Shown one piece after another: positions 2,272 through 48,680 of a DNA stretch of 58,436 nt. The notes below the pieces were generated by a model. It worked only from the letters and a program-made list of their open reading frames with translations, made no database searches and was not told the DNA's origin. Source of the DNA: Polychytrium aggregatum (lineage: Eukaryota > Chytridiomycota > Chytridiomycetes > Polychytriales); NCBI RefSeq assembly GCF_025602895.1, contig NW_026516399.1, forward strand, positions 1 to 58,436, written 5' to 3'. The first letter of the stretch is position 1. The number at the start of each line of letters is the position of its first letter. The translations under genes and the position numbers were made by a program.

Positions 2272-2287
2272 TCATCCCCTCCCCAAA
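2272..2287 (-). other. Polypurine tract for plus-strand priming
   Basis: In element sense TTTGGGGAGGGGATGA, ending flush with the 3' LTR. The last three bases are the TGA stop codon of pol, so the tract also encodes the last pol residues (Leu-Gly-Arg-Gly-stop). Confidence 0.85.
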
Positions 2288-5200
2288 CTACGGCCACTCC
2301 TACGAACAATAAGTCCAGGCTTGTCGGGGTACCGGCGGTGGAAGTCGGCTATCTTGTCGGGAGCGTTAACGTAGTTGGCGGGCTCCCAGCTGCGATGATC
2401 AGTCGAGTAGCCCTTCCAATCAACGAAATAGCTCAACTTACCGCGGACCAGCTTGGAGTCGAGGATCTCCTGAACTTCATACTCCAAGTGGTCGTCGACG
2501 CGGACTGGCGGAGGAGGGTCTTGGATGCGGCCGGGGAGGGTGTTCGACTTGTGGGGCTCGAGGAGGGAGACATGGAACACCGGATGGATCTTGAGATCCT
2601 TGGGAAGGTCGAGGCGGAAGGCGAGGGAACCGATGGCTTCGACGATCTTGTAGGGTCCGATGCGCTGGTAGTCCAACTTCTTGCTTGGACGGGTGGTCTT
2701 GATGTTGCGTGTTAGGACCCAGACTTGATCGCCAGGAGCGAACTTGGGAGCGTCGGACTTGTGGGCATCCGCAAAGCGCTTGTAGTCCGCCTTGGCCTTC
2801 TCGAGGTTCTCCTTCAGCAACGCCAAGTTGTGCTGAAGGTGTTCGACTCGGTCGGTCGCGGAGGGGACATCGAGACTGGAAGGAAGGACCGGAGACTCGA
2901 ATCGAGGGTTGAAGCCGTAAGTCGCCAGGAACGGGGAGGCCTTGGTCGAGGTGTGCTCGAGGTTGTTGTATGAGAACTCGGCGAGCGGGAGCAGCATCGC
3001 CCAGTCATCCTGCTGGTACGAGGTGTAGCAGCGGAGATGCTGGTTGATGACTTGGTTGACCCGCTCAGTCTGTCCATCGGTTTGGGGATGGAACGCCGTG
3101 GACAGACTGGTCTTGATGCCGAGTTCCGAGCACAGGGCCTGCCAGAACCGCGAGGTGAACTGGCTTCCTCGGTCCGAGACGATGTTGTCCGGGAGACCGT
3201 GGAGGCGGAAGATGTTGTCGAGGAACAGCGACGCTGTTTCCTCGGCACTTGGGAGGGACCGACAGGGAAGGAAGTGGGCCATCTTGGTCAGGCTATCGAC
3301 GACGACAAAGATGCAAGTCTTGCCGTTGGACTCGGGGAGGTCGGTGATAAAGTCCATCGTCACCAGAGACCAGGGTCGCGATGCCGTCGGGAGGGGCTGC
3401 AAGTATCCAAACGGCTTATGTCGAGGGACTTTCGAGCGTGCACAAGTGTCGCACGTCGAGACATAAGCCTGGACATCCTTGCGGATCGAGGGCCACCAGA
3501 ACTGCCTCGAGATCAGTGCTCGGGTCCGCCGAATGCCAGGATGTCCAACAGCGACAGGGTCGTGGCATGACTTGAGGACGGGGACTCGACACGACTCTGG
3601 CACAACGATCTTGTCCATGAAGGTGAGGAGATCATCCTTCAGGACATACTTGGGATCGTTGCGGAGCTGGTCCAGGGACGGGTCCTTTGGTTGCTCCTCG
3701 GCAATGAGCTTGAGCAAGTCCACAGGGCGAGTGGAACTTGCATCCGAGGAGCGACGGACGGCACAGGCGAACGCCGAAGGTGGCAGCAACGGGGGAGGCT
3801 CCTTGGACACAGGTGCGGACGGAGGGACGTAGTCCGGGCGGCGGGAGAGAGCGTCGGCCTTGCCGTTCTTTGGACCGGGGAGGTATTGAATCCGGAGGTC
3901 GAACCGAGACAGGAACTGCGACCACCGGGCGTGTCGCTGGTTGAGGATGCGGGCCGACGCCAGGTATTCCAAGTTCTTGTGGTCGGTAAGGACTTGGACT
4001 GGGTGTTGGGCGCCTTCGAGGTAGTGTCGCCAGACCTCGAATGCCTCCTTGATGGCCAAGAGCTCCTTCTCATAGATGCTGTAGTTGCGTTCAGCATCCA
4101 TGAGCGTGCGGGAGTGAAAGGAGCACGGGTGCAGGTGGCCATCGGAGCCGCGCTGGGACAGGACGCATCCGATCGCAAAGTCTGAGGCATCAGACTCCAC
4201 GACAAAGGGCTTGGATGGGTCGGGGTGCGCAAGGACGGGCTCGGAGACGAAGGCTTCCTTGAGGGACTGGAAAGCCTTGTGGGCGTCGGGGGACCAGCGG
4301 AAGACCTGGGACTTCTTGAACAGGAGCGTGAGCGGACCGGCGATCTTGGCATATCCGTCAATGAAGCGACGGTAAAAGTTCGAGAACCCAATGAAGGAGC
4401 GAAGGTCGGAGACATTGCGGGGGACGGGCCAGTCGACAATGGCGGAGAGCTTTGCTCGTTCCATCTCGATACCCTTGGGCGAGATGACGTAGCCGAGGAA
4501 CGAGACCTTGTCCTTGGAGAACTCGCACTTCTCCAGCTTGCAGTACAACTTTGCAGCCTGGAGCTTGGCCAGGACCTGCTTGACGTGATTTGCATGCTGA
4601 GTGGGGTCAGCGCTGTAAATCAAGATGTCGTCAAGGTAGGCAATCGCAAAGTTGTCCAGCTCCTCACGAAGGACATCGTTGATGAAGTGCTGGAAGGTGG
4701 CCGGAGCATTGGTGAGTCCAAAGGGCATCACCAAGTACTCGAACTGGCCGTAACGAGTGCGGAAGGCCGTCTTCCACTCGTCGCCTGCGCGGATACGCAG
4801 CAGGTTGTAGGCCCCGCGGAGGTCCAGCTTCGTGAACACCTTCGCGTCCCGGACTCGGTCCAGCATCTCGTTGATCAACGGTAAGGGATAACGATTCTTG
4901 ACCGTGATCGTGTTCAATGCGCGATAGTCCACGCAGAGACGCAGAGAGCCGTCCTTCTTCTTGACGAAGAGGATCGGGGAACCGGCGGGAGAGGACGAAG
5001 GACGGATGAACCCTTTGACGAGGTTGTCGTCGAGGTATTCACGAAGGGCCTTGAGTTCGGGCTCTGACAGGGAGTAGAGTGGTCCGAACTTGGGGGTCTT
5101 GCCGGGCTCCAGGTCGATCGGGCAGTCGTACGTCCGGTGCGGGGGCAACGAGTCGGCTTCCTGCTTCGAGAAGACTGAGCCAAACGACTTGTACTCCTCG

Positions 5201-6231
5201 GGGATCGACGTCGAGAGGGGCGTCGGATCCGGATCGGTGGCAGGAAGGACGAGGACTTGGAACACAGTCAGGGGGTCGGGGCTAGACTGTGTGTCGAGGA
5301 CGGACTGCTCCAACGACTTGTACCTGATCGCTTGGACACGGACAGGAGCGGGGCTGGGAGCAACGGGACCGGGGAGACCAGGACGGACGGAGACGAGACC
5401 GGAGGGACCAGGACGAGCAGCACAGGAACAGGGCACCTCACTCGGAACACAATCAGAATAACGTTGAGCGATCACTTTATTCTGATCATCTTCGCGAGTA
5501 CAAACGGTGCGAGGCGAAGAAGCGAGCACCACAGTGGTGTCGGTAGAGGCACGAGGGAAAACATTGGGTGTGTCGCCAACAAGAGGAAGGGGAGAAGGAG
5601 AAACGGAAGAAACGGAAGGGAGGGAAGAGGCATCCACAACCTTGAGGATGTGGCTTGCAGGACGGGGAAGGCAAAGGAGTCCACGAGCCCAGTGAAGCCT
5701 GGGTTCGATGGACTGCAGCCAGGGATAGCCAAGGATAACGGGTTGGTGGGGAGACTTAATGACATCAAAGGAAAGGTGTTGAGTGTAGTCCCCAAGAACA
5801 ATCTTGAGGGGTTCCGTCTCAAAAGTGATGGGGCCGGAAGAAAGTGGCTGGCCATCGACACCTTGGACAGGGAGGGGAGTGGATTTGGAAACGAGGGGGA
5901 CCGAGAAGCGGTCAACAAAGCTCTCGTCGATGAAGTTGCCGGAGGCACCAGAATCGACGAGAAGTTGGCAAGAGAGGGAGCGACCAGAAGGGAGAACAAG
6001 AGAAGCGGAAAAAACGGGAGAAGAAGAAGAAATCGAAGAAACGCACGAAGAAGGCTCGGAGCAGAGATCAGTGTCGGCAGCATGGTTCGAGCAGATGACC
6101 AAGTTCGCAGGTGGTGTGGAGATCGGGAGCTCTGTCAAAGACATCTGGGAGCCAGATGTGCCCTTAGAAGAGGCGGGTTTGACAGAGTGCGATCCACCAC
6201 CGACTACATTGATCATTCCACACATAGCCAT
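2272..6231 (-). CDS. pol: Pol polyprotein: protease, RT, RNase H, integrase, chromodomain
   Basis: 1319 codons from the ATG at 6231, but the frame is open upstream to 6357 and overlaps gag by about 43 nt, so Pol is probably made as a Gag-Pol fusion by -1 frameshifting. Aspartic protease: LLVDSGASGNFID, catalytic Asp about residue 93. Reverse transcriptase: FVKKKDGSLRLCVDYRALN and YLDD at about 532. RNase H: VESDASDFAIG, YEKELLAI, TDHKNLEYL. Integrase: HHCC finger, then Asp about 960, Asp about 1017 (VSDRGSQFTS) and Glu about 1055 (TDGQTERVNQ); a GPY-type segment (RIGPYKIVEAIG) follows. A chromodomain closes the protein (about 1245-1300: VDWKGYSTDHRSWEP), the targeting module of chromoviruses. 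No internal stops or frameshifts. Confidence 0.95.
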   Translation of the reverse strand: MAMCGMINVVGGGSHSVKPASSKGTSGSQMSLTELPISTPPANLVICSNHAADTDLCSEPSSCVSSISSSSPVFSASLVLPSGRSLSCQLLVDSGASGNFIDESFVDRFSVPLVSKSTPLPVQGVDGQPLSSGPITFETEPLKIVLGDYTQHLSFDVIKSPHQPVILGYPWLQSIEPRLHWARGLLCLPRPASHILKVVDASSLPSVSSVSPSPLPLVGDTPNVFPRASTDTTVVLASSPRTVCTREDDQNKVIAQRYSDCVPSEVPCSCAARPGPSGLVSVRPGLPGPVAPSPAPVRVQAIRYKSLEQSVLDTQSSPDPLTVFQVLVLPATDPDPTPLSTSIPEEYKSFGSVFSKQEADSLPPHRTYDCPIDLEPGKTPKFGPLYSLSEPELKALREYLDDNLVKGFIRPSSSPAGSPILFVKKKDGSLRLCVDYRALNTITVKNRYPLPLINEMLDRVRDAKVFTKLDLRGAYNLLRIRAGDEWKTAFRTRYGQFEYLVMPFGLTNAPATFQHFINDVLREELDNFAIAYLDDILIYSADPTQHANHVKQVLAKLQAAKLYCKLEKCEFSKDKVSFLGYVISPKGIEMERAKLSAIVDWPVPRNVSDLRSFIGFSNFYRRFIDGYAKIAGPLTLLFKKSQVFRWSPDAHKAFQSLKEAFVSEPVLAHPDPSKPFVVESDASDFAIGCVLSQRGSDGHLHPCSFHSRTLMDAERNYSIYEKELLAIKEAFEVWRHYLEGAQHPVQVLTDHKNLEYLASARILNQRHARWSQFLSRFDLRIQYLPGPKNGKADALSRRPDYVPPSAPVSKEPPPLLPPSAFACAVRRSSDASSTRPVDLLKLIAEEQPKDPSLDQLRNDPKYVLKDDLLTFMDKIVVPESCRVPVLKSCHDPVAVGHPGIRRTRALISRQFWWPSIRKDVQAYVSTCDTCARSKVPRHKPFGYLQPLPTASRPWSLVTMDFITDLPESNGKTCIFVVVDSLTKMAHFLPCRSLPSAEETASLFLDNIFRLHGLPDNIVSDRGSQFTSRFWQALCSELGIKTSLSTAFHPQTDGQTERVNQVINQHLRCYTSYQQDDWAMLLPLAEFSYNNLEHTSTKASPFLATYGFNPRFESPVLPSSLDVPSATDRVEHLQHNLALLKENLEKAKADYKRFADAHKSDAPKFAPGDQVWVLTRNIKTTRPSKKLDYQRIGPYKIVEAIGSLAFRLDLPKDLKIHPVFHVSLLEPHKSNTLPGRIQDPPPPVRVDDHLEYEVQEILDSKLVRGKLSYFVDWKGYSTDHRSWEPANYVNAPDKIADFHRRYPDKPGLIVRRSGRSLGRG

Positions 6232-6296
6232 GCGCTCGACACTTACCTCATGCTCCTTACCATCGACGCTTGCTTCTGGAGGAAGGGGGGACGGCT

Positions 6297-6339
6297 CCAG
6301 ATCTAAGCCTCCACTTAGATCTGGGCCTGGTCGTTTCCC
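6297..6339 (-). promoter_or_regulatory. -1 ribosomal frameshift signal between gag and pol
   Basis: The heptamer GGGAAAC occupies 6339-6333 and is phased as G GGA AAC in the gag frame, the X XXY YYZ arrangement. Eight nt later an 11-bp perfect hairpin starts: CCAGATCTAAG (6324-6314), loop TGGAGG, CTTAGATCTGG (6307-6297). The gag stop TAA (6317-6315) lies inside the stem. A -1 slip enters the pol frame, which is open from 6357. Confidence 0.85.
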
Positions 6340-7298
6340 GACTCGAAGTGTTCCTCCTCACCATCATCGTAGACGATGGTTCGGACAACCTTCGAACGGG
6401 GACGGGAGCCGGGAGCCTGAGGACGGGAGCCAGGGAAGCGGGAACCAGAGGCGGGAGCACGGGAGCCGGACTTGAGGGGGCAGGACTTGGCGACGTGGCC
6501 GGGCTTGCCACAGCGGAAGCAGAGGCGCTCCTGGAAACGGCGGTTCTTCTCCTCGGGGGTCAGGCGGCTGACGACGGCGGCGTCGATCTGCATCGGCTCG
6601 GAGTAGAGAACCGGAGGCTCCTGGGCGGGCGGCTGGAAGGACGGAGGTCGGGAGTTGAAGGCCTGGGTGCCGAAGGAAACAGGGCCAGTGTTTCGGAGCT
6701 CGTTGTTGAGCTCGATGATGCGTGCATCGATCTTGAGGCAACGCTCGACGAACGGGACCAAGCGGAGAGGGAGAGGGTTGATGAAGGAGAGGCGCTGCTT
6801 GATCTCCCTCGACAGGCCACGGCGGAAGGCGGATATCTTGGCTTCGTCGTTCCATGGAAGGTCGGCGGCAACGCGGAGGAACTCTGAGGCATAATCCATG
6901 CACGAGCGGTTGCCCTGTGCCATGGAGGAAAGGAGCAGCTCGGCAGTATGGGTGCGGTCGGGATCGTCAAACGCTTGGCGAAAGCGTTCCATGAACGAGT
7001 CGAACGAGTGCAGGATTTGATCGTTCGATTCGATCAAGGGAGTCGCCCACTGGAGGGCCGGACCAGTGAGCAAACTCAAGACGTAACCCACCTTGACTTG
7101 CTCGGACGGGAACCTGGATGCCTGGAGCATCATGAGCAGGCGGCACTGGTTGACGAAGGGGCGGAACTTTGACCTGGTGCCGTCGAACTTGTCCGGGGTC
7201 GGCATGTGCGGGAGCTGCGGGGCGGCGGAAGAGTGTGTGGTCCGGAGGAGGACCAGTTCCTCCTGGAGGGCAACGATTTGGGCCTGGAGTTGGTCCAT
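6315..7298 (-). CDS. gag: Gag protein with one CCHC zinc knuckle
   Basis: 327 aa nucleocapsid/capsid precursor of the chromovirus. The N-terminus has a short coiled coil (LQAQIVALQEELVLL). A retrotransposon Gag domain follows (VNQCRLLMMLQ..., WATPLIESN, FRQAFDDPDR, GLSREIKQRLSF). Near the C-terminus is CFRCGKPGHVAKSCP, a canonical CX2CX4HX4C knuckle, then an Arg/Gly/Pro/Ser-rich tail. The ATG at 7298 is the first after the PBS leader of about 120 nt. The frame ends in a hairpin that belongs to the frameshift signal. Confidence 0.93.
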   Translation of the reverse strand: MDQLQAQIVALQEELVLLRTTHSSAAPQLPHMPTPDKFDGTRSKFRPFVNQCRLLMMLQASRFPSEQVKVGYVLSLLTGPALQWATPLIESNDQILHSFDSFMERFRQAFDDPDRTHTAELLLSSMAQGNRSCMDYASEFLRVAADLPWNDEAKISAFRRGLSREIKQRLSFINPLPLRLVPFVERCLKIDARIIELNNELRNTGPVSFGTQAFNSRPPSFQPPAQEPPVLYSEPMQIDAAVVSRLTPEEKNRRFQERLCFRCGKPGHVAKSCPLKSGSRAPASGSRFPGSRPQAPGSRPRSKVVRTIVYDDGEEEHFESGNDQAQI

Positions 7299-7404
7299 GT
7301 GGGATATGGGGGCGGGGGGGAGAGTGCAGAGAAGACAACAGAGAATAGAAGGATGAGGGCAGCAACGAAGCCTCAGCCAAGCAGGTGGTCAGACAGAGAG
7401 AGGG

Positions 7405-7415
7405 AGTTCGAACAA
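7405..7415 (-). other. Primer-binding site, self-primed (Tf1-type)
   Basis: Two nt inside the 5' LTR the element reads TTGTTCGAACT. This does not start with TGG, so it does not match a tRNA 3' CCA end. It is exactly complementary to AGTTCGAACAA at 7520-7510 in the LTR, 39 nt downstream of a TATAAA. The complement would be the 5' end of the transcript, as in the Tf1 self-priming mechanism. Confidence 0.7.
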
Positions 7416-7417
7416 TA

Positions 7418-7802
7418 TGTGAGGACCACGACAAGCAACGACACTGGACGACCAGGTGCTTGGCGAACAACGATAAGCTATATTACGACTTATCAGATAA
7501 CAACAAGTGTTGTTCGAACTGCAGATACAAAATGGGTGCAAGAAAGGAGGGGCTTTATAGCCAAGAGGGAAACCGAAGGGCGAAAGTGGGCGAGAGGGGT
7601 GGAGCGACAAACGAGGGACGAGATGGGGGTGCGAGGGAGGCGGAGCTGCTAGAGAGAGGGGCGAAGCACAGCGCAGTCGGAGGCGAAGTAAGAGTCATCG
7701 GCGCCAGCCAATCAGGGAATACACGCCAAGACAAACAAACATGACTCACGGTGCATCACGCGCAGCAGTCCACACGTGTTCCCAACGTGCATGATCATCA
7801 CA
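7418..7802 (-). repeat. 5' LTR of the chromovirus
   Basis: 385-bp LTR next to the PBS and gag leader; by eye identical to the 3' LTR at 1887-2271. It carries the promoter elements described separately. Confidence 0.95.
7510..7559 (-). promoter_or_regulatory. LTR promoter: TATA box and inferred transcript start
   Basis: TATAAA at 7559-7554 on the minus strand. The 11-nt AGTTCGAACAA that pairs with the PBS starts at 7520, 39 nt downstream, a normal TATA-to-start distance. Transcription start there is inferred, not shown. Confidence 0.6.
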
Positions 7803-8658: not shown

Positions 8659-9478
8659 CCCAGCCGCGGCCCGCCCTGACGGCCGAGGACAATGCACCCC
8701 TTGTCGATGGTCACTTGGAGATGCCCCACAATGAATGGTCTGGGTAGAAATCGCAATGGCCTATCCCAGATCTTCCTTTCGAAGACCACCTGCCAGGGCA
8801 AGCTGCCTGGCCAAGAACAGGAGCACTGAATCATGCCGTTGAATGGATGGGCTGACGAGTCGATGAATGGAGTGATTCAAGCAGCCGGCCGCAGAGCAAG
8901 CGATAAAGCAGCCTCGCTACAATGGCATGGCCCCTCGTTGGTCCCTGACGGCGTGATTCAAGGCCAGCCGGCCAAGTGCTGGCGGAAGAGGCATTGAGCC
9001 TCATTGATGCGGAGCGACCGAGCAAGATACCCCAGGCATTGTGTGCTGGCCGTGTCAATGTTCCTGTCTTGATTGTGGCCGCACAATGAGATCAGAGTTC
9101 TTGGACACTGATGCTTGCTCGCCACCACACTGCTGAAATACAGCGAACATTTTGAAACGAAACACCCACGGATGACTTGGGTGTCCTGTGTGGCTTGTGT
9201 GAATCAGACGGCGCCCGAACTCCATGAAATCCGCTCGCCGAGGTCCTCCGGCGATTTTGCTCTTGCCCTGTGTCTCCCTCTCTCACACAGGGACAACCAG
9301 GGAAATGATTAGATCGGGTGTGTGATCTGTTCCGAGTGGGACTATGTCTCCCATTGTCCTTCAATACACTGTGGCCCCAGTAATATCATATCGATGCATG
9401 CAGGCATGTATGTATGTATGTATGTATGTGTGTATCTATTTCGCACTTCCCACACAGCCGCAGGAACAGTGTTCCTTA
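8659..9478. other. Intergenic, no gene recognised
   Basis: Contains a minus-orientation copy of the dispersed motif (TTTGAAACGAAACACCC at 9151-9167) and a short TATG microsatellite at about 9407-9430 just past the NRAMP stop. Confidence 0.5.
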
Positions 9479-11569
9479 TCAGAGCACGCTGTAGATCATG
9501 AACAGGTTGAGGAAGGTCAGGGTCGAGCCTACGAGCACGGCAAATACCGTGGTGACCCAGTGGTTGGCTAGTGACAGCTCCTGCGATAGGCCCAAGGCTG
9601 AGCGGCGCAGGAATGTTTCGACAGACATGCGAGTTAGTCGAGGAAACGCATCGGGGGCCATCGCTCAGGAAATCCATCCTTCGCCAAAGCAAAACCAACG
9701 GCCGCATATGCCCAGCAACCACATCCAGCGAGCGACAGGACCAGACCCGAGAGCAGTGTATCGAGCTGGTGGGCTTACCGTTGTAGCGGACAGTCATGAT
9801 GCGGGTATTGGCACAAAAGTATATCAATGGCCAGACACTGAAGGGTAGACAGATGGACAGGATCACCTGGCTCAGGACAAGCAGGTCGTTCACGCCGCTG
9901 TCGCCTCGATAGATCGCCACAGCAATCCCCGGGATGATGGCGACGGCTCGGGTAACCAGCCGACGGATCCAGAGCGGCAGCCGCATCTGCGTGAACCCTT
10001 CCATCACCACCTGGCCGGCGATCGTTCCGGTGATGGTTGAGGTTTGGCCCGAGAGCAGCAGTGCGACAGCAAAGACAACCGCCGCCCAGTGGCCAATGTC
10101 GGTCGAAATGAGCCCAAAGGCATCGCTGATTTCGGAGGCGTTCTGACCCCGGACAAAGAAGACGCCGCCAGCGACGATCAGAATGGCAGAGTTGATGTAG
10201 AGCGCAAAGGTGAGCGCCATTGCCGAGTCGAGGTACGAAAGATGCAGGGCCGTGCGGATGCGCTCCGCAAACATTGGATCGTCGACGAGCTTGCGGCTCT
10301 GGGGCGAGTCGAGCAGCTCCATCTCCTCCGAGAGCGGCGGCTGGTGCTCGAACCCGTCGATCTGCATCCCGGCGCCGTCCACAGACCGAGATTGCACCAG
10401 ATACGAGTGGATATACAGGTTGTGCGGCATCACCGTCGCGCCGACAATCGCAATGGCCAGAAACAAGTACTCCTGGTCGATAAGCAGCGCTGGCTCGAGC
10501 GGCAAGTATCCCTTGAAGACATCAATCCAGACGGGGTTGGCCCGGCCCATGAGCACGCCAAAGCAGGCTCCGACGACGAGCACCAGGAACATGATGCCCA
10601 GTTCGAGATAGCGCATGTACTTGTCGGCCAGACCGCTGAGGATAATGATGACATCGGTGCCGGTGATGAGGATGCCCCAGACAAGCGGAATGCCGAACAG
10701 CAGCTTGAGGGCGATGGCCGAGCCGATAACCTCTGCCAGGTCTGGGCTCGCGCAGACCAGGAAGTGCAAGCCAGGTGTGTCGTTGAAGTTCATCAGCAGC
10801 ATCAGGATCAGCACGGCCGTCATCGATCGCAAGAATGCCACCGCCGCAGCGAACGTGATGGCCAATGCTCGTCAAGCGAAACGGCGCACCTGTAGCCAGG
10901 ATTCCAATCTCGGCAACGACGTAAATGAGCTTGTTCAGCCATGGATGCAGCGTCTTTCTCGACAGCAGCGCCAGGTCGCAGCCCGTCACCAGCCCGACCT
11001 TGATGGCCATGTTCTGGAGGAACACCGCCATGCAGTTCGACACCAGAATGAAGAGCAGCAACTTGTACTGGAACTTTGACCCGCCAGCCAAATCGGTTGC
11101 CCAGTTGCCTGGGTCCATATACCCCACGGCGACGACGAAGCTGAGGCACGTCGAAGACCCGTATTTGCCACCGTCCGGCGCCGTTCGCAGCGAGCAGATG
11201 CTCCGCATTAATGAAATTGCCACAGCGAGCCAGAGGGTGCGCCTGAGAGAGCAAGATGCAGTGCTGGATCCTGATAGCTTACCCGGGGCCAATATGGGCG
11301 AGAAAGAGCTTCCAGAACGGCCGCTGGCCGGCCGACAGGCTGTCGCTCGAGGCATTCGCCTGGTCTTTGAGAGACCCAGCGAGCGACGGCGGGCGCTCAG
11401 CCGCCGTATTCGAGGCGGAGTCGTCCCATCCCTCGCCAAGGACATTGCCGTGGGATGAGGGATAGGCCAGCGCAGAGTCGGCAATGTCGCTGTGCTGGAG
11501 CTCGTCGCTCTCGTCGACGGGTCGATAGGGATGGCGGCTCGCCCCAAAGGCAAAGATCGGCCGCTCCAT
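9479..11569 (-). CDS. NRAMP-family divalent metal (Mn/Fe) transporter
   Basis: Proton-coupled importer of Mn2+/Fe2+ of the Nramp/Smf/DMT1 family. Four exons: 11569-11283, 11140-10890, 10741-9779, 9567-9479. All joins keep phase (1590 nt, 529 aa). Exon 1 encodes a 90-residue hydrophilic N-terminus ending PFWKLFLAHIGPG. Exon 2 brings the TM1 metal-site motif DPGNWATD (GYMDPGNWATDLAGG). Exon 3 starts DLAEVIGSAIALKLLFG and carries the TM6 motif MPHNLYIHS, plus most of the eleven or so membrane segments. The last exon gives the final segment (ANHWVTTVFAVLVG...NLFMIYSVL). Divergent from the HAD hydrolase at 11793. Intron 2 is fully open in the exon-3 frame; I excluded it because the join ILAT-DLAEVIGS matches the family exactly. 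Confidence 0.92.
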
Positions 11570-17055: not shown

Positions 17056-19306
17056 TTAGTGGTCCAGGATGCGCAGGTTGCCAGAGACAACCTTGTCGTC
17101 CAGAATCGAGCCCGAAGGGATATCGATGCGCTGACCAAAGTTGGCGACGATGATGACGGTGCCTCGCAGGGTCACGTCGTGGCCAAAGGTGACATCGCCA
17201 GTGACGGTCAGGTGGTCGAGCTCGAGGATGTGGGGAGGGCTAGCGAAGCGGGAGAAGAACTGCTGGACCTTCTTGAAGTGGTCGCCGAGCTTGATGATGG
17301 GGGTGGTGGGGAAGGGGCGGTTGGGGTTGACGATGAGCTCGCCGTGGTGGAGCGAGTACAGATCCGAGGTGATGAGGAACAGGTCCGAGCACGACTTGAC
17401 GGGCAGGAAGCGGCGGCGGGGGACGTTGATGCCATGGGCGCCCTCGAAGTGCTTGATGGCAGCACCAACGGCAGTCTCGAGCTGGATGATCTTCTCGCCA
17501 GAGTCCAGGGTCTTGGTGTTGACGATGATCTCCATGCCAAGGGACTGCTCCTCGATGACGCGCTTGATGGCCTTGAGCGAGATCCAGAGGTTGTTGGTGT
17601 TGAAGATCTTGAACTTCTTGACGGACTTGAAGTCGTCAATGTGCTCCGAGGGAACCTGGGCAACCTCGAGCAGGCGGATCTTGCCCTCGTAGTCGATGAG
17701 GGTTCCACCCTTGACATCGGCCTTGGTCTTGTCGGTGACCTCCATGATAAACTCGGCGCCGCTGGCAATGACGTGCTCGAGGATGGTGGTGTCGACGGTG
17801 GCGCCAAGGTTGTCGACGTTGGAGACAAAGAGGTACTCCTTGCCCTCGTTGATCAGCTTGTCGAGCAGGCCCGAGTTGGACAGCGACTCGAAGAGATCAC
17901 CGTGGCCCGGAGGGTACCACTGCGAGAGGGGAGCGTCGGGCTTGGTGGGCATGGGCAGAAGCGACTCCTTCATGACACGGGGGAAGCGGCTCTGGTTGAA
18001 GGTGAGGATGTCGACCTGGTGAGCGCGGTACTTTTGGATGATGCGACCGGTCTCGTCGTCGGTGTTGAACGAGTTCATGAGGATGAGAGGCACGTTGGTG
18101 TTGTGCTTGGTGTTGAGGTACTGGATCTGGCGGACAGAGAGGTCGAGGAAGGTCATGCCGTCGCGAACTTCGATGGCGCTCTTGGGGCCAACACAGCCCA
18201 TGGTGGTGCCGAGACCGCCGTTGAGCTTGAGGACAGCGAGCTTGCTGAGGTTCTCGGTCTTGCTCTCGAGGGGCATCTCAGGGAGCTGGCCGTAGGGGAC
18301 GATCTGTTCGGGAACGGGCGACTTGACCTTGCTCCAGTTGCTGGAAGACAGAGCCGGATCAGGACGCCGATCACTGGAAGCACACGGCCAGTGGAGCACG
18401 ATGGCGGTGGTGCGCATAGCCGCAGACACAAGAATGTTGCAAGAGGCAAATGTGCCGTCAGGGAGACAACTTACAGCTTCTCGTGGCGAGCCGACTCTTG
18501 CAGGTAGCGAGTGAAGAGATGGTAGAAACCGTCCATCTCGGCAGAGAAGAGCTGCGGACAGAGGACAGCCAAAGTGAGCATGACGGAGGACGGACAAGAC
18601 AAGTATGGCAGAATGGTCGGCAGCTAGAGCGACGGGGACTTGTGAGCCAGCGCTGCTGGGGCCGACACGGATATATGTCTCCCGCCAGCACCTCGAGCGC
18701 AAAAGCATCGATCGCCACAGGGCTGTACGTGACCGTGCAAGGTCGACTGGAGCCAGAGCTTGCGCACGGTAACTATAGCGAGCCGATTGGGCGGCGAATA
18801 CGGAGGCTCCCGATTGTTGGCACGCAGTCTTTACCTCAGAATTGGCGCTCTCAGGAACCTGGGCCTTGAGCTTCTCCAGAGCAATCCTCATGGTCTTGGC
18901 CTGCTGGTTGACGGTGGTCTCCTGGAAGCTCTGGCAGTCGCAGCAAGCCGAGCAGAACGGAACAGAACGGAGCAGAACGGAGCCAGCAGATTGCTCGTGA
19001 GTGGCTGAGCCAAGGTGGATTGCTTGGAGCAGGCGGCTTTGGATGCAGCACCACCCAGCCAAGATCGCTGTCCCCTCCCGACGCCAACGCAGATGATAGC
19101 CCTGCCCGATGGCCAGAGGCAGATGGCCGAGAGAAGGCGACAGGCACTTGCAGCGGTCGCTTGCGATGATGAGGCAGCAGAGTCCGATTCGCGGGCGGGT
19201 TACTTACGGTCTCGGAGCGGGTGCGCTCAGAGGCGAACTGGGCGCGGATGTAATCGAGGGTGCCCTTGACGGGGACGGCGGGAGCGGCAGAGGTTTCGGA
19301 GATCAT
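17056..19306 (-). CDS. UGP1: UTP--glucose-1-phosphate uridylyltransferase
   Basis: Makes UDP-glucose for cell-wall glucan, glycogen and trehalose. Four exons: 19306-19208, 18921-18835, 18551-18475, 18340-17056 (1548 nt, 515 aa, phases consistent). The nucleotide-binding loop [16 protein letters not shown] lies early in exon 4. Then come [26 protein letters not shown], the uridine/glucose-binding blocks [13 protein letters not shown] and [13 protein letters not shown], and the basic segment [15 protein letters not shown]. The C-terminus is the left-handed beta-helix used for oligomerisation ([20 protein letters not shown], ending GNLRILDH). Exon 3 supplies [21 protein letters not shown] box lies about 110 bp upstream of the ATG. 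Confidence 0.97.
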
Positions 19307-22771: not shown

Positions 22772-23528
22772 GCTCAGGTATTCGCTTGGATGGTGTGGAG
22801 TGATGTGATGCTGGCTGAGGGCGAGCTGATGTGGGCTGTCTCCAGCATTGGGGGGAAGGTACCTCTGCATCACTGCTCTCGAATCAGGGACGGGCTTCTG
22901 TCAGGAATGTTCTGACGACAAGCATTCGCCGGCCCGGGTTTGGCCGGAGAGCCCGGTGCATTTCTTTGCAGGCAAAGACCACTTTACTTTCCTGGAGATG
23001 GAGAGAGCTCATGCCCTTGGCTCATCGAGCTCGCCACACCCAGCGGCACTCACACTATCAATATTTTCCGGCCCTCTCGCGGCTGCTCATCTCGGTCACC
23101 TGAAAGTCACGTTGTATGTGACGCAGCAAAAGTTGGAATCCGGCCATGGTCGGTTGACGGCATTTGGTATCACCTTGAGCCGATTGACGGTGGTGGTGGG
23201 CGATTGGTGTGGAGGAATGACCAATTGTATCATTGTTGGAAGCTCCACTCCGATTGCGGACAAGAACCACCACTGTCTGAATCTCTCTGGTTGGAAACCT
23301 AGTCAAGCGTGGCTGTGTGTCAGCGAGATGACATGATCGTTTGGCTATCAGGCAAGACTCACCTTGACAAGATGTCTTCCCACGACTGATTGAGCGAGCG
23401 ATGCGTTTCTGGATCCGAATCAAGGACGCCACTGCACAGTATCTCTGCCAGCCCAAAATGCGCTGGTTTTGAGGAGATTCTTTCTTCCCCAAGGGCAGAA
23501 CCAGCCATCGCTGCTATTTTCTCGCCAG
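22772..23528. other. Region between ACMSD and the Fanzor ORF
   Basis: Divergent promoter space. The left boundary of the Fanzor element must lie here if the element is confined to this locus, but I found no inverted repeat or obvious end. In-frame ATGs at 23469 and 23529 compete for the Fanzor start. Confidence 0.4.
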
Positions 23529-26117
23529 ATGGCTCCCAAGCGAAAGACACCCCCCGACCCCGACCCGGGGTCACCCAATGACTCTCATGTGGCCAAGAAA
23601 CCCGTCATCAAATCGTGTCGTGCCTGTGGATTGACCAACCATGCTAGACCCTTCACCAAGAAGTGCACAGCCAGAGTCGACAGCAGCCCTGCCTCTGGCT
23701 CTGCCTCGGTCGCTGAAATGGTCAGCCAAGCACCCAAGGTCCCTGTATGTGCCACGTGCAAGCAAGTGGGTCATGCCAAAAGCAGCAGTTCATTGTGTAC
23801 CAAGAAGAACCCACTCTGGAGCTCTACCTTGCCTGACTGTGGCCCAAACGAGTATGCCAAGGCCGAGTACTCGATCATCAAGTGCACCCTCGACGCCATC
23901 ATCAAGAGCGATGCCTTGCACGACAAGATCGAGGAGACTGTCCGAGCCATGACTCAAGTGCAGTACGAAGCATCTCGTCTCCTGGAGCTGCATCTCAGGC
24001 GGTGCTTGGACGAGGGCATCACTCTCCCCACTGTGTCGTCGAGTGATTCCTCGTTTGTTCGAAAGTGCTTCAATATGGTACAGACAGGAACAGTGGGTGT
24101 CAGGACAAACACCCCAGAAGATGACAGGCACATCCTCGAGACCTATGACATGTATCGAAGTACATGGAGTGGATCGTGTATCCTGCCTCCTGTGTCCCTC
24201 CCAAAGGGTACTGGGTCACAGGTCCTTGGTTTGGCTGTCAAGACCTATGCAGTCAACTGTGAGACCCACGTTCTCGATCGTTACTGGTCACTCCTCCGTC
24301 GATACTGCAATCTGGTCCTGATTGCTCCGAAGGATGTCAAACGGCACACACACGTCGATGAGTGCATGAAGCTGATGGAGAACCCCCTCTCCAAGACACT
24401 CCTCGTTGATCTGAGAAAATCCTTCGCCCACCATGCCGACCAGTTGTATGAGTTTCGGTACGAAAGCCACCAGGACCTGTACAAAGTCGTACCAATTCTG
24501 GCCAGTGAGGTCTCTCGCCTGACCCACCTGAAGGAGGCCCTCTTCATGGTGGTCTTTCAGAAGATGATCATCCCCAGGCTCGTGAGAGAAACCATTGGCC
24601 TGAAAGGAGAGCGTGGGCGACTGAACGAGGAGATGTGTCAACCCATCCACCACATCGGGGCTGACAGACTCAAAGATCTCCAGACCCAGCACGAGGAGGT
24701 GGACAAGCAGATCGCTGTCAACACGAAGCGGATCAAGCGCCTCACCGACCGGCTTGCCCAGACCAAGAAGCGACACAATGTCCCTCGAGCACAGTGCACC
24801 TTGGTCCCGCTCTGCGATGCCCGAGCCAAGTATGTCAAGCTCGACACCAAAGCACTGTGGGAGATCCTTGGATACCAGACTGGCACTGGGCTCAAGTGGG
24901 ACGACCTGAAGACCAAGGTCAACGACACCACAAAGCAAGAGACCTTCTGGCAGACCAACTTCAAGCTGGATCCGAGACTCTTTGGTGCCAGGAAGGAGGG
25001 GAAGCAGCTCTTTGGTTGCGAGATCACCACCGATGGTGTCGGGTGTTCAATCACCACACTCAGATACAGGATCCTGGAGAAGCAGGACCCTGATGCCAAG
25101 CCAGAATCCACAGACAAGGACGACAAGACACCCAAGCTCACTCTCGAGAAGAAGATCCAGAGCAGGGTCGGTCCCATTGACGACTCTCGGACCACATGGA
25201 TCGGGATCGACCCTGGTGTGGGATCGATCTTCACCGCTGTCATTCGGGCACCCGTTCAACCATCCATCCAGGAGCAAGACGGTGTCAAGGTGACCAAGGC
25301 ACAGCGTGCCAACGAGAAGATCGTGTCGTTCTCCAACAAGGAGTACCAGCATCGAACTGGCACCAGCCAGGCGACCAAGTGGATCCAGAGCACCCACAAG
25401 GCCCTTGATCTGCAGGAATGGATGAGCACCACACCGAGCCCCAAGATCCCTGGAGTGCCTTCTTTCTTACGATATATTCGCCATGTGTTCACTGGAGACA
25501 TGCTGGACAAACAGCTGTACTTCAGCCTGACCCGGCGACGGCGGTTCAAACGGCTTGATCTCCACAGCAAGCGACAGCGCACCGTCCACGAGATGTGCAA
25601 GCGAGTCATCGACCAGGCACCAAAGGAGACCGAAGTGGTGATTGCCTTTGGGAATGCCTCCTGGAAGCAAGGGAAGGGATACGCATCCAGCCCACGGAGA
25701 CTCAGGTTCGCCAAGTACTTTGAGCAGTTCACCCACCACCAGAGACGCCCACCAGACCGATCCGTCTCCAAGATCCATGTGTGCTCGGTGAACGAGTTCA
25801 ACACATCCCAGGTGTGCTCACATTGTCGGGAAGCCAAGCGACTCGAGTCACCCGAGTATCTTGATGTCGAGAAACCACACTTTGTCCGGAGCTGTACAAG
25901 CTGCCATACGCTGTGGGATCGAGACATCAATGCCTCAAGGAACATGATCTCGGTATGCCAGTCGATCATCGCCACAGGAGATCGGCCGGGTGTATTCAAG
26001 ACTGTGCTCCCGAAACCAACGAAATCAAGGAGATTGCCAACGAAGACAGGAGTGCAATGCCATGGCCTACCCGCTGGGCCTACAGTCAGTCAGCGGGCTT
26101 CAGAAGCCAGGAAGTGA
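23529..26117 (+). CDS. Fanzor: eukaryotic TnpB-like RNA-guided endonuclease (862 aa)
   Basis: Single intact exon. The RuvC-like core is complete. RuvC-I is WIGIDPGVGSIFTAV with catalytic Asp561. The Fanzor-type RuvC-II strand is VVIAFGNASW at about 703-712, where bacterial TnpB has its Glu, so the acidic residue is expected elsewhere, as in known Fanzors. A zinc finger C763/C766/C789/C792 (VCSHC, CTSC) is followed by RuvC-III LWDRDINASRN with Asp799. The middle is helical and basic (KQIAVNTKRIKRLTDRL), like the WED/REC region. The N-terminus has a PKRK nuclear signal and two identical-spacing CX2CX4HX7C knuckles (C30-C46, C74-C90). In known Fanzors the protein binds a guide RNA encoded at the element's 3' end and cuts DNA. 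I start at 23529 because MAPKRK gives an NLS; 23469 is possible. Confidence 0.92.
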   Translation: MAPKRKTPPDPDPGSPNDSHVAKKPVIKSCRACGLTNHARPFTKKCTARVDSSPASGSASVAEMVSQAPKVPVCATCKQVGHAKSSSSLCTKKNPLWSSTLPDCGPNEYAKAEYSIIKCTLDAIIKSDALHDKIEETVRAMTQVQYEASRLLELHLRRCLDEGITLPTVSSSDSSFVRKCFNMVQTGTVGVRTNTPEDDRHILETYDMYRSTWSGSCILPPVSLPKGTGSQVLGLAVKTYAVNCETHVLDRYWSLLRRYCNLVLIAPKDVKRHTHVDECMKLMENPLSKTLLVDLRKSFAHHADQLYEFRYESHQDLYKVVPILASEVSRLTHLKEALFMVVFQKMIIPRLVRETIGLKGERGRLNEEMCQPIHHIGADRLKDLQTQHEEVDKQIAVNTKRIKRLTDRLAQTKKRHNVPRAQCTLVPLCDARAKYVKLDTKALWEILGYQTGTGLKWDDLKTKVNDTTKQETFWQTNFKLDPRLFGARKEGKQLFGCEITTDGVGCSITTLRYRILEKQDPDAKPESTDKDDKTPKLTLEKKIQSRVGPIDDSRTTWIGIDPGVGSIFTAVIRAPVQPSIQEQDGVKVTKAQRANEKIVSFSNKEYQHRTGTSQATKWIQSTHKALDLQEWMSTTPSPKIPGVPSFLRYIRHVFTGDMLDKQLYFSLTRRRRFKRLDLHSKRQRTVHEMCKRVIDQAPKETEVVIAFGNASWKQGKGYASSPRRLRFAKYFEQFTHHQRRPPDRSVSKIHVCSVNEFNTSQVCSHCREAKRLESPEYLDVEKPHFVRSCTSCHTLWDRDINASRNMISVCQSIIATGDRPGVFKTVLPKPTKSRRLPTKTGVQCHGLPAGPTVSQRASEARK

Positions 26118-26225
26118 CTGTCCCGTTTCTTTCTGGATAGACTGTAAGTATCTCGCACTGTTCATTGAGTATTTCGACAGTGGATGCCGGGTCGCCCATA
26201 TTCTGGGCAGTCCACTTCGGGGTTG

Positions 26226-26405
26226 CCATCCCTCTTGGGATGGTCGATGGGAGGTGTTTGACTCCCTTGTGCAAAGTGTGTGTGTGTGTGTGTGTGTGCA
26301 AAGTGTGTGTGTGTGACGGCGAGAGGCTTCTCGCCTTCCCTCGGGGGTCTCTCGCCAGAGACTGCTCTTCTCGCCGACCGAGGTGGCTCCGAGAGCGCGT
26401 TTTTT
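26226..26405 (+). ncRNA. Candidate Fanzor guide-RNA scaffold (fRNA/omega-RNA)
   Basis: Starts 108 nt after the Fanzor stop. It holds a run of perfect hairpins: CCATCCC/GGGATGG with TCTT loop (26226-26243); GGCGAGA/TCTCGCC with GGCT loop (26318-26335); GTCTCT/AGAGAC with CGCC loop (26347-26362) nested inside CCTCGG/CCGAGG (26339-26383); GCTC/GAGC (26386-26396). A T6 run at 26400-26405 and a T7 run near 26419 follow. A GC-rich structured 3' flank is where TnpB and Fanzor guide scaffolds lie. Assignment is inferred; ends are unknown. Confidence 0.45.
26276..26316 (+). repeat. (TG)n microsatellite with internal CAAAG duplication
   Basis: Two TG tracts, each preceded by GTGCAAAG, inside the Fanzor 3' flank between hairpins. 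Confidence 0.85.
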
Positions 26406-26419
26406 CGTTCTCGCTCATT

Positions 26420-28511
26420 TTTTTAACAAGAAATTTTTTCATAGTGTCACTGCCATTCCTCGCTATCGACTCTGGCTGCAGGAGAGCCCTTTCCCCGCGG
26501 CTCGCTGATTGACCCCACAGACTGACTGGAGCGAGTGACTGGCTGCCACGACGGCAGCGCAGCCAAAGTCAAACGACGATTCCGGAATCGGAAAGGCCGC
26601 GAAATGTCGCATTCTTCTGACACACAATATCCCACGGGAATGGAGACATCATGCTCTAAAAGAATGCTTTGACTTTGTGCCAGGAGGAATAATTGACCAT
26701 CCATTGTTACCTCAAAGCCAACACTGTATCTGGCAAAGGCGAGCACGATCTCTGCTCGGAAAATAGTACGTTGGAGTACTCCCATCAATCAAGCAAACCA
26801 TCTGCGGCTGTCCCCGGAACTCACAGCCACGGCAGTCCGCGTAGTATGTCGACTCTGGCAGCGCAACAGCAAGTCAATGCAGTGTAATCCCCCCGTCGGT
26901 CTGCCTCGGCTACTGTCCGCCAAAGGTCAGCCATATGACGAGGCACTGGATTGGAACTGCGCGTTGCCTGTCGACAGAGCCGAGCGGGTGCGCGGAGCTA
27001 TGGGTGCCGGAGATGGCAGACCGACTCACCAAGCGGAACTGGCCAGCAGTCCCTTTGCGGCGGGCGGCCCTATTTGGATAATCCATGAGAAGTGCGGGGG
27101 TCAGCAAAGACTGGCTCCTGGATGCCATATGCCACTTGGCCTTGACCAGCCACACGCAGCTCAAATCAGGTTCAAGGTTATCATCGCACAAGCGTCAGGT
27201 GAAACACGGATGAACATGACATCATTTTGAGGGGCTTGGGCAGGATATGCACCAGTACGACTCGTTACCTATGCGATATGGGGCAGATGGTATTAGTTCT
27301 CGTCCCAAGCCACGTTAGACCGTGTGATGCCTCATTGCAGGCCCAAGTCAGATCATATAACGTTGTTCTCGTTCACTCTTTTTCAGAAGCAGAACTGGCA
27401 TAACGATTTCTATCATCACACAAGCGGGGAATGGCAACTGGGCAATCTATCCAAGATATCTACCTTGTGGACACACACGCATGGCCATCAGCTAGGACGA
27501 GAGCAGGATCGATCGATCGACCAACACGTCGCAGCGAACACCCTGTGGACAGTACGACAGAACATCGGACACGTTAGCGCAAGCTGGCCATCACGAGAGG
27601 CTCTGGTGCGGAGAGCACCGTCGAGGAGCTTCTGTTCAGATGGTGATGCATGTTATGTGTTTTTCGGCATCGACTTGGTGGCCTCCGAAAAGGTGGATAG
27701 GTATCATCCTCTCAACCCAACGACGGCACGCGAGGGGATGCGCGGGGGGCAGTAGAGCCGGCAAAAATGGCAGAGCAACCTACCATGGATGGGATTGCAG
27801 ACACTACGACGACCCTTGAAGATACTGCTCGGAGGAGCTGCAGATTGAAACGTGGATCAACGCAGATTAGCACATAGCCACATCCGTGCAGAGACCGTGC
27901 CTCCTCCTCTCGATGAGGATGCGCAAGGCGGCACTCTCATAAACGAGGAATTCTTATAAAAGATTGAGTCCACAGGAATCTTCAGAGAAAAATTCAAATC
28001 TTTGGTGCCTATTGCGCGCCTTCTTTTGTTCGGTGCAGTGTTCGCTCCGCAGCCACGCTGCAGAGAGCCAGGACTTACCATCGACCGAGGATGTTTGAGA
28101 CAGAGGCTGCTGCCGGCCCAGGACACCATCGAAGCCGAGGATGGCAGGCCGATGATGCCAAACGGGGCGGCAAGAGAGTGCGCTGGAGAAGAAAAAAAGT
28201 GCGAGAGGGACACGCTATATACGCGGCGCATATTAATTTCATTATTGGCGCGATCACGGCGCGACCCAATCACGGGCCTCCCAGAAACCGGGGGCGCTGC
28301 ATCGCTCCCGGCAGCAAGACTGGCCCCACACTGATCCGAGCATGCCAAACACAGCACCAAGGCAGAGCACCAAGGCAGAGCACCAAGGCAGAGCGGGGAG
28401 CACCGCGGGACATCGTTCAATGCACGTCGCCGATAGTGAGCAGCCACTCGGAGAGTCTGGCTGGGCCACATCTGTATTCAGAACCCGGAAGAAAACAGCA
28501 ATCGCTGGCCC
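26420..28511. other. 2-kb region without a recognised gene
   Basis: AT/GC balance resembles neighbours. Several ORFs of 90-145 aa exist on both strands (for example minus 26447-26788, plus 27324-27755), but none matches a family I know. The only gene-like signal is a two-exon start on the minus strand, listed separately. The right end of the Fanzor element may be in here. Confidence 0.4.
27784..28129 (-). CDS. Tentative 5' end of a minus-strand gene (two exons)
   Basis: ATG at 28129 behind a pyrimidine-rich leader and a TATATA box at about 28215-28220. Exon 28129-28079 ends at a strong donor (ATG|GTAAGTCC). The next possible exon 27837-27784 is flanked by CTGCAG and GTAGGT and joins in phase 0 (17 + 18 codons). 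A third possible exon starts near 27600. I could not follow it to a stop and recognise no family. Confidence 0.25.
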
Positions 28512-46173: not shown

Positions 46174-48680
46174 ATGGCAGACGCTCAGGAGCGCGGCTTG
46201 ACGCTGCTGAAAGGCAAAGAGTATGAAGAGGCCATCAAGGTTCTGACGGCCGGCATCGAGCTCGCAAAGTCCGACGCCAAGACCAACAGCGACCTCGCCG
46301 CCAACATCCATGTGCTGTATTCGAATAGGTCGGCCGCATACGAGCGCGTGGGAAAGTTCCATGAGGCCCTCGAGGATGCCGAGTTGGCCATCAAGCACAA
46401 CCCAGAGTGGGGCCAGGGGTACTTCCGCAAGGGACTGGCTGCCCTGCGTCTCGGGCACGAGAAACGGAGCCGGGTCTGGGCGGCCATCGGATGTGAACTG
46501 GATCCGCAAATGAAGCAAAACCCGTCCGTCCAGCAGGTTTTCAAGAGCCTCGACACCATCGAAGTAATCCACGTCAACCCGGCCAACGCCAAGAAGATCC
46601 TGGTGGGAAACCCCATCAGCAAAGACTCGATCTCCGTTCGGATGCCTCTGGGCAGCCCCGAGGCCGAGAAGATCTTTGTGTTTGAGGAGGGCGAATACGA
46701 GTTTGAGACCGAAATCGTTATCACCCACGCCGTCGCCATGGTCCCCAAGACCGGCAAAGGTGTCAAGATCACCCGGACGGGTCTCGAGGGCAATGTCCCG
46801 CACGCCATCTTTCTCGCCAAGAACACAGCCCGGCTCTTTATCGAGAACCTGGAGATTGTCTCGACCACAGGCGCGGCGCTGTTTGCCCTGGCGCTCACGC
46901 AGATGGAGATCCGCAACTGCAGGCTTGTTTCGACTCGCCAACCCCAGGGCAAGGAGATATACGCCGTGACGTGCGACGGATCCGCGTACTTTTACAAGTG
47001 CGACATCTCGAACGAGCACGCAAGCGGCATGGTGTTCCGTGAGAACCAGTCAAGTCTGCTGGAAGACTGTGAGATTCACGGCTGCAAGAACGTGGGTCTC
47101 GAGGCCAAGGACGGAGGCAGCTTCCGCGCCGTCCGATGCAAGATTTTCCAGAACAACCAAGGCGCGGTCGTCTGGAAGCAAGCCAGCGTCGTCGAGATGC
47201 AGAACTGCGAGGTCTACGGCAACAACTCTGAAGGCATCATCTGCAATGGCGCCAAGATGCGGCTGGATCACTGCCAGATCCACCACAACTCATGGGGCAC
47301 CATCTTCTTGAGCCAGGCATACTGCGATGTGAATGGCAACCAGATATTCAAGAATCTCTTTTGGGGTGCGCTGGTGCTCGGCGGTTCGAATGCCCGCCTG
47401 GTGGAAAACGAGATTCATGGAAATGGTAAGATTCACAGAGCTCGCGAGGGAGAGTGAGTCGGAGTGGAGAGAGTAGCACCGCTTGCTTTGAGAGAGGAGC
47501 AGGGCGCACGCCGCGCTGCAGAGACCGGACTGCCCAAGCAGATAGCAAGACAGGTCGCTCGTGATATTTTAGAGCGCCGACGTGCTTCATTTGTTCATCC
47601 CGGGCAGCTGCTGACAGTGTGATTTTTTTGCTTCAATCAACCCTGGTCATTGCATATCCAAGGCTGTGGCGGTATTCGCCTCTGCCCCAACTTTCAGGGC
47701 CGGGTTGAGATCCTGTCCAACTATGTTCATCACAACCGCGGCCCCGGCTTCTGGAACGAGATCGAAGACAGTGCGCTGCTGGAGACGCCCGAGTACGCCA
47801 AGTTGGTGCAGGGCCCCATCCCCGAAGCCAAACGAGCCACGATGCATCTCCCACCCGGCGAAACTCGGCTCCACACCGCCGCTCCGATCCTGCAGGACAA
47901 TGTCTTTGAAGAGAACTCGGAAGTGAAAGCCCATCCAACCGAGAGGCGCCAGGAGCAGTGTACCTTGTGCCAGATCACCAGTTCGTCATCTCGAAAGCTG
48001 CAGCGATGTGCCAAGTGTCCCTCAAAGTACTGCAGCAAGGAGTGGTGAGTTGCTCGATCACGGTGCCACCGGTCGGTGCGGCATGGCAAAGGCGTCGGTG
48101 CTGGACTGGTGCGCTTGTGAGAGGTTTGATCCAGATACCGGAATCAGACCAAGCCACCTTCAACAGCGGCCTGAGCACGGTTGTGGGTGCTCGATTTACG
48201 ATCTGACCCTGTGGTCTCATCCATGACTTGGACTCTTTCGGCCCGCTATATGGCCTCTGCGGCCACAGCCAAGCCCTGGACTGGAAGCGTCACAAGGACT
48301 TGTGCAAAAACTTCCAAACCAACCACGTCCTCATCATCAAGCCTGAGGACTTCACCGCTGCTCGATATGAGTGCCCTCCCGAAAAGAGCACACACGCCCT
48401 GCCACCGCTGCGCAACGGCAAGCGATTCATCGTCAAGGTGCTGACCGACGAAGAAGAGACGGGCCCAACCTCGCCCCTCACGCTCTACGACGAGTCCGGA
48501 AACGTCGACCACCAGTTCCGGTCGCCCGAGCTCTATCAGTTGGCCATGGACTGCGGCAACATGTGCATCACTCAGCTTACGGCCAAGAAAATGTTTTTGT
48601 GGGCCGCCTTCGAAAACAACGCCAAGGGCGAGGTTCTCAAGGTCTTCACGAACGAGTTGGCTCCATGGCAGGTGTGGTAG
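46174..48680 (+). CDS. TPR / parallel beta-helix / MYND zinc-finger protein (681 aa)
   Basis: Exons 46174-47425, 47663-48044, 48269-48680 (2046 nt, in phase). Residues 1-115 form three TPR-like repeats (AYERVGKFHEALEDAELAI; PEWGQGYFRKGLAALRLG), as in Hsp70/90 co-chaperones. Residues about 150-530 are a right-handed parallel beta-helix with right-handed repeats (ENQSSLLEDCEIHGCKNVGL; ASVVEMQNCEVYGNNSEGI), a fold seen in pectinases and in F-box-type substrate adaptors. A MYND finger follows: CTLCQ, CAKC, CSKEC, HKDLC, with the last ligands supplied across the 48044/48269 splice. The C-terminal 120 residues are a compact unknown domain (KVLTDEEETGPTSPLTLYDE). Probably a protein-interaction scaffold. 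Confidence 0.8.

Follow-up and report, generated by a model that had tools for sequence, protein, structure and literature searches.

Two questions are raised by the long reading frame at positions 23529–26117 of a contig from the chytrid Polychytrium aggregatum: whether it encodes a Fanzor nuclease, as an initial annotation had claimed, and what kind of mobile element carries it. We studied the frame within its window, which is the whole stretch of 58,436 nt analysed here, and against other copies in the same genome. The window also contains the following host genes.

9342–10823: Nramp transporter
17056–18891: UTP-glucose-1-phosphate uridylyltransferase
46174–47457: TPR/beta-helix protein
56009–56902: M18 aminopeptidase (part)

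At positions 1887–7802 lies a Ty3-type LTR retrotransposon whose 384-bp end stretches are identical, and ten copies at 99–100% identity were found among 11 scored places. Contig C402, which carries the Fanzor-bearing element at the same site as the window, is absent from these 11 places; the Ty3 element may therefore be a point of difference between the two homologous contigs.

The reading frame encodes a Fanzor1 protein

The frame and its features are given below, with SpuFz1 residues taken from an alignment to 8gkh.

23529–26117 (+): Fanzor1 ORF, 862 aa, ATG start, no internal stop
23616–23666 (+): N-terminal motif 1, C30-x2-C33-x4-H38-x7-C46, also in the homologue P0004
23748–23798 (+): N-terminal motif 2, C74-x2-C77-x4-H82-x7-C90, retained in most rows of alignment A2
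25209–25211 (+): RuvC-I D561, aligned with SpuFz1 D383
25794–25796 (+): rearranged catalytic Glu, E756, aligned with SpuFz1 E541
25815–25904 (+): four-Cys zinc finger, C763/C766/C789/C792
25923–25925 (+): RuvC-III D799, aligned with SpuFz1 D606

The frame is thus full-length and uninterrupted, as the initial annotation had stated, and D561, D799 and the four cysteines lie where it had placed them. All 25 sequences of alignment A2 share D561, E756 and the four cysteines, and nearly all share D799, row P0017 stopping short of it. The RuvC triad, with its glutamate just N-terminal of the TNB zinc finger, is arranged as in SpuFz1 (D383/E541/D606). We take N709, in FGNASW, to be the canonical RuvC-II position, which is D or N in most A2 relatives; the catalytic glutamate is E756, in keeping with the Fanzor-type substitution at RuvC-II that the initial annotation had named. 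The N-terminal motifs 1 and 2, presumably zinc-knuckle-like, distinguish the protein from SpuFz1; the region of motif 1 (C30–C46) had no Pfam match. Further on, D561 is followed by 197 residues to T759-S760, by the four-Cys finger and, after 5 residues, by R798-D799. This arrangement agrees with the motif common to Fanzor and TnpB, D-X(125,275)-[TS][TS]-xx-C4 finger-X(5,50)-RD, given in part of the text of PMC3627910.

Pfam PF07282 (Cas12f1-like TNB) matched residues 748–806 with 37.8 bits (cut-off 26.3 bits). A single-sequence phmmer search of the PDB (best E only 0.31) did not yield a Fanzor. Nor did one emerge when the whole protein was compared with 5.8 billion others, no candidate out of 6,068 reaching E 0.001, so region and profile searches were needed. 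Residues 541–830 retrieved ten proteins at E 1 or better, five of which are public P. aggregatum gene models. The same search provided P0004, a 748-aa relative on a 2.8-kb ENA contig; a search with P0004 gave 13 proteins, itself included. The profile search matched SpuFz1 with an E of 6.7e-43. According to a predicted model, the protein superposes on SpuFz1 over residues 111–826, and in the alignment to 8gkh D561 and D799 fall on the catalytic aspartates, so that the initial annotation is not contradicted on this point either; an AlphaFold2 model from 13 close sequences was set aside (pLDDT 47.6). Profile and fold searches group the protein with Fanzor1, nearer than Fanzor2, TnpB or Cas12, in keeping with its assignment to the TnpB/Fanzor clade. 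Identity to SpuFz1, from the SPu-1 element of Spizellomyces punctatus, is about 16% over the aligned fold.

The protein had been called unusually long, but 862 aa is ordinary for Fanzor1, the PpFz1 chain being numbered to at least residue 844. Purifying selection, also suggested earlier, is supported by a median Nei-Gojobori omega of 0.37 (136 pairs, 17 copies). By analogy with characterised Fanzors, the ORF very probably encodes an RNA-guided DNA nuclease.

Other Fanzor-related sequences were observed in the genome. Gene models P0001, P0002, P0003 and P0005 have Fanzor C-terminal sequence fused to unrelated domains (F-box, adenylate-forming/male sterility, RhoGEF/WW and kinase) and are either chimeric predictions or insertions into genes. 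At L003:280–1713 (contig C124), a 477-aa frame has a Fanzor2/TnpB-like RuvC and zinc finger fused to sequence that resembles a helix-turn-helix and a serine recombinase start (..CYARVSS..). Related loci are L002, L006 and L007. On two contigs, near-identical copies form inverted pairs with a spacing of about 5 kb; L003 is possibly an internally deleted IS607-type element. A 446-aa Fanzor2-like protein is encoded at L053:931–2268 (contig C279), its best PDB match being mimivirus Fanzor2 L79 (1.3e-19), so the genome seems to hold both Fanzor1 and Fanzor2 types.

The gene lies in an element with CACTA-type ends

Homology between the window and other copies ends at 23053 and 26446, except for the same-site contig C402. 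The element delimited by these edges is organized as follows.

23050–23052: left target-site duplication, TCA, identical to the triplet at the right edge
23053–26446 (+): whole element, 3,394 bp, CACTAT...ATAGTG, edges placed where inter-copy homology stops
23053–23369 (+): left end, 96–100% match in the best 40 of 177 candidates
23497–23501 (+): AGAAC, insertion site of a 366-bp block in other copies, uninserted in the window copy
26176–26255 (+): right-end block 1, near-invariant in 34 aligned copies (partial view)
26276–26314 (+): (TG)n tract, variable
26315–26446 (+): right-end block 2, near-invariant, reaching the terminus
26447–26449: right target-site duplication, TCA

The termini read CACTATCAAT... 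on the left and ...TTTTTTCATAGTG on the right. Their inverted repeat barely exceeds six bases, only CACTAT pairing unbroken between the two ends. With up to 2 mismatches allowed, the left-end 18-mer occurs at 143 places in the genome; with up to 3 allowed, the right-end 24-mer occurs at 122. The reversed controls occur at none. A perfect 3-bp duplication flanks the element at 16 of 22 distinct insertion loci, seven same-site duplicates not being counted, and at four of five further loci, giving 20 of 27. L027 was omitted from the count because its left end was not found. Across 38 distinct left flanks, the triplet that is duplicated has the consensus T-[AC]-N. The element therefore bears the marks of CACTA/EnSpm transposons, namely CACTA...TAGTG termini and a 3-bp target-site duplication.

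Within 23053–26446, the Fanzor is the sole gene seen and no transposase was found; the element copies read likewise lack a CACTA transposase. A search for Plavaka transposase gave no match, as did its control. As far as seen, the element depends on a transposase supplied in trans.

Conservation at the right end exceeds that of most of the ORF, and block 1 is possibly a guide-RNA or transposition sequence. Fold z-scores were −2.09 for block 1 and −1.37 for block 2, as compared with −1.91 and −0.49 for two coding controls, such that folding of the right end is no better than that of one of the controls. Covariation cannot show in these blocks because their sequences are near-invariant. The window had no Rfam match.

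Remnants of a mariner-like element adjoin the gene

Distant Fanzors of the same genome share 72–81% (L046–L048) or 38–41% (L049–L052) protein identity with the window's. Each lies downstream of DDE_3 transposase sequence on the same strand: a long frame in L046, L049, L051 and L052, matches on contigs C63 and C2 for L047 and L048, and DNA similarity only at L050. The L049 transposase, the sole one scanned against Pfam, matched PF13358 (DDE_3) with an E of 1.4e-23. L049 and L051, the only two of these copies with the left end read, have TA at both edges and 26-bp imperfect inverted ends with ACGGGACA in common. A TA duplication is a mark of Tc1/mariner elements, and the family, judged by these copies, bears those marks: DDE_3, TA and inverted ends.

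Such two-gene, TA-flanked elements, transposase then Fanzor1, are abundant. A TNB match lies 2,310–2,459 bp downstream on the same strand for 37 of 123 scored transposases; where TNB otherwise fell within 5 kb, it was upstream in two cases and on the opposite strand in three. These counts are lower bounds because only the best candidates were scored (123 of 559 for the transposase, 150 of 663 for TNB). At C63:45989, C63:30887, C2:38501 and C24:75293, transposase and Fanzor appear to share one frame of 1,205–1,239 aa with a single TGA between them, inside the match.

Two stretches of the window's element resemble this mariner-like family.

23370–23412 (+): relic of a DDE_3 transposase ORF (3′ end), reading ..FPRLIERAMRFW.., 43 bp, 93–95%
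26118–26146 (+): old mariner-like right end (CTGTCCCGTTTCTTTCTGG..ACTGTA), now internal, where similarity to L046 and L047 stops

The 93–95% identity of the relic is to the region upstream of the Fanzor in L046–L049 and L051. The old right end directly follows the Fanzor stop codon and is separated from the new right end by 300 bp of other sequence. The left end, 23053–23369, had no match in the mariner-like Fanzor elements read. The simplest reading of these sequences is that a mariner-borne Fanzor was captured by a CACTA-ended element and so, it appears, passed from one transposon superfamily to another. The opposite direction is unlikely because the transposase end is truncated. We also considered fixed-guide homing, in which the old right end would be the omega RNA scaffold and the next bases a guide against empty CACTA elements. 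This was rejected because the bases after the old right end vary among 34 aligned copies, by substitutions and indels, making a fixed inherited guide unlikely, and because no pre-capture, empty CACTA element occurred among the copies read.

Copies fall into three main size classes at occupied sites

TNB matches in the genome, all types included, number at least 150 (best 150 scored of 663 candidates), as compared with 42 Fz loci reported in Spizellomyces punctatus. Among the 100 left and 100 right ends listed, 61 elements have paired ends: two of 278–295 bp, one of 665 bp, 28 of 1,550–1,639 bp, one of 2,614 bp, 17 of 3,331–3,427 bp and 12 of 3,700–3,767 bp, among the matches listed. None of the 61 exceeds 3.8 kb or is long enough for a CACTA transposase besides the Fanzor. 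Since 39 of the 100 listed left ends have no listed right end within 15 kb, longer elements are conceivable. The 1.6-kb copies read lack element bases about 504–2308. On this evidence the CACTA-ended family amplified mainly as elements of three sizes, one of which, at 1.6 kb, is without most of the nuclease gene.

The 3.7-kb copies read contain a 366-bp block with TG..CA ends, TATAAA within and AGAAC direct repeats on both sides, which we take to be solo-LTR-like. An intron was ruled out for this length difference, the block lying between AGAAC repeats, and for a 63-bp difference between L009 and L031, where 21 codons are gained or lost in frame within the coding sequence; the same 21-residue indel is found in L047. 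At L055 (C51) and L056 (C142), two left ends are arranged face to face at distances of about 1.1 and 1.3 kb, and the stretch read contains no right end. This further pair, in which about 1,078 aligned bases include 9 differences, is not part of the 11 same-site pairs described below.

When joined flanks of 20 loci were searched, no unoccupied site was found among the 40 candidates scored, out of 84; the highest-scoring one reached 136 bits, about half of our estimate for a full 140-base site. At 13 of the 20 loci, a second contig also carries the element. The lack of empty sites fits a drive to occupancy, but also old insertions in a diploid.

Element copies are mosaics

Linkage between variants decays steeply among the copies. 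In 22 copies at different sites, mean r2 was 0.455 within 20 bp, 0.148 at 20–50 bp and 0.047–0.060 beyond 50 bp, the unlinked value being about 0.048 (biallelic sites). Transversions alone gave an agreeing decay. All four combinations were present in 81–84% of site pairs over 50 bp apart (29 copies). The shared 1.8-kb deletion, scored in eight derivatives at distinct sites against the 22 full copies, showed no linkage on average with variants lying over 100 bp from it (mean r2 0.006–0.058, highest single value 0.364); nuclease-deleted copies are thus mosaic too. Four mariner-like copies also have conflicting splits (24, 19 and 12), indicating that exchange extends beyond the CACTA-ended family. 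Copies of the Ty3 element are too alike to be informative as a control for mosaicism. Different-site copies diverge by 6.82% on average (231 pairs); at such divergence, the recent arrival that the initial annotation had offered beside purifying selection is only partly right.

Copies at the same site differ as well. Element divergence was 5.21, 3.26, 0.74, 2.26, 3.31, 4.49 and 0.14% in seven same-site pairs, and 2.77, 0.54, 1.75 and 3.74% in four others for which flanks of only 77–127 bases were read. In eight of the 11 pairs, element bodies are 1.75–5.2% apart between nearly identical flanks; in three they are only 0.14–0.74% apart. Flanks differ by 0–0.4%, the exceptions being one flank each in L012/L013 (1.5%) and L042/L063 (2 of 120 bases). 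In the clearest case, the central ~3 kb of L016 is identical to L013, 21 kb off on the same contig, and L016 is 3.2% from L011 despite sharing its site and a terminal mutation. These patterns fit pervasive gene conversion among copies, possibly driven by the nuclease.

The Fanzor might instead be a passenger, the mosaicism reflecting host-driven ectopic conversion among dense, similar repeats with the nuclease uninvolved. We consider this a serious contender, if one somewhat short of an even chance. Ectopic conversion between repeats requires no special nuclease, the donor in the clearest case is a near neighbour on the same contig, and the nuclease-deleted copies have been drawn into the exchange. 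What speaks against a passenger is how extreme that exchange is, with linkage close to that of unlinked sites once the distance exceeds about 50 bp, together with the behaviour of another multicopy family. Its three same-site pairs, from two contig pairs, have no excess of body over flank divergence, although few copies were read and two of the pairs are arms on one contig pair, with one end window each out of homology.

It is doubtful that the mosaics, all of which come from one assembly, are partly an artefact of assembling many similar 3.4-kb repeats. Mosaic tracts are short, and mis-resolved repeats would also be expected to yield differing bodies between agreeing flanks. However, singletons are not scarce (223 seen, 199 expected) in a roughly neutral site-frequency spectrum that leaves out 90 multi-state sites. 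Moreover, three of the 11 same-site pairs agree closely, those of the other family agree, and contigs reach 1.6 Mb, which suggests long reads.

Discussion

The reading we favour joins origin, spread, copy dynamics and mechanism, and we judge it, as a whole, to be the best explanation and a probable one. By the sequence evidence, the Fanzor derives from a two-gene Tc1/mariner-like element, DDE_3 transposase followed by Fanzor1. New CACTA-type ends now wrap the 43-bp transposase end and the old right end, with duplications of 3 bp and not TA. Gene conversion would swap element interiors between dispersed copies, while the flanks of each site and, in the clearest case, the outermost ~200 bp would stay put. 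By analogy with characterised Fanzors and TnpB, the right end may give rise to an omega RNA with flanking host DNA as guide; the complex would cut unoccupied copies of the site, and repair would restore the element. Such cutting may also fuel conversion, a weaker proposition than RNA-guided cutting itself. An extension to homing-like drive, in which flank-derived guides keep sites occupied, repair exchanges templates and the copies form one recombining pool, seems unlikely to us; nuclease-deleted copies would then share the pool while insertion sites stay fixed.

It is quite improbable that some other superfamily that makes 3-bp duplications, such as PIF/Harbinger, is the true home of the element and that its CACTA-like ends arose by chance: its ends match unbroken over six bases only, it has no visible transposase and 3-bp duplications are possible in Harbinger elements (PMC12730594, in part), but CACTA/TAGTG termini with a 3-bp duplication are named as marks of CACTA elements in part of PMC4158355, and PF02992, the family of CACTA transposases, has 29 matches in the genome, 28 of them over the cut-off. 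The CACTA-ended element shares these ends and duplications with CACTA/EnSpm (CMC) transposons and differs from them in its very short inverted repeat and in that the copies read carry no CACTA transposase.

Bao and Jurka (2013; PMC3627910) described Fanzor1 in Mariner, Helitron, IS4-like, Sola and MuDr elements; in the portion of their text available, EnSpm and CACTA do not occur. Like the cases reported there, the present one suggests capture of Fanzor1 by unrelated DNA transposons, and their Mariner form matches L046–L052. Unlike in those cases, as far as that portion goes, donor and recipient types are found in one genome and the truncated transposase end is visible. SPu-1 is given 33-bp TIRs with a putative TA in the same portion, as opposed to the CACTA ends and 3-bp duplications found here. 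Our search, which left most subscription papers and supplements outside, found no paper on Fanzor and CACTA together. Fanzor and EnSpm co-occur in only one work, as separate repeats in the part available; Fanzor with Polychytrium aggregatum gave none among the matches listed, and Fanzor with gene conversion none on topic by title among those listed. TnpB of IS200/IS605 has been demonstrated to act as a gene drive for bacterial plasmids (PMC11870625, in part). The proposed logic is alike, in that the guide records the site, unoccupied copies are cut and the element is kept or spread, whereas the present case is a sequence pattern, with no empty sites seen and exchanged bodies.

The role of Fanzors for their host elements is described as an open question in PMC10432273. 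In P. aggregatum, mariner-like donor and CACTA-ended recipient Fanzor elements coexist in many copies with the join still readable, so that a change of superfamily by a Fanzor can be observed directly. Because the copies are strongly mosaic, nuclease-driven conversion in a eukaryote becomes a testable idea.
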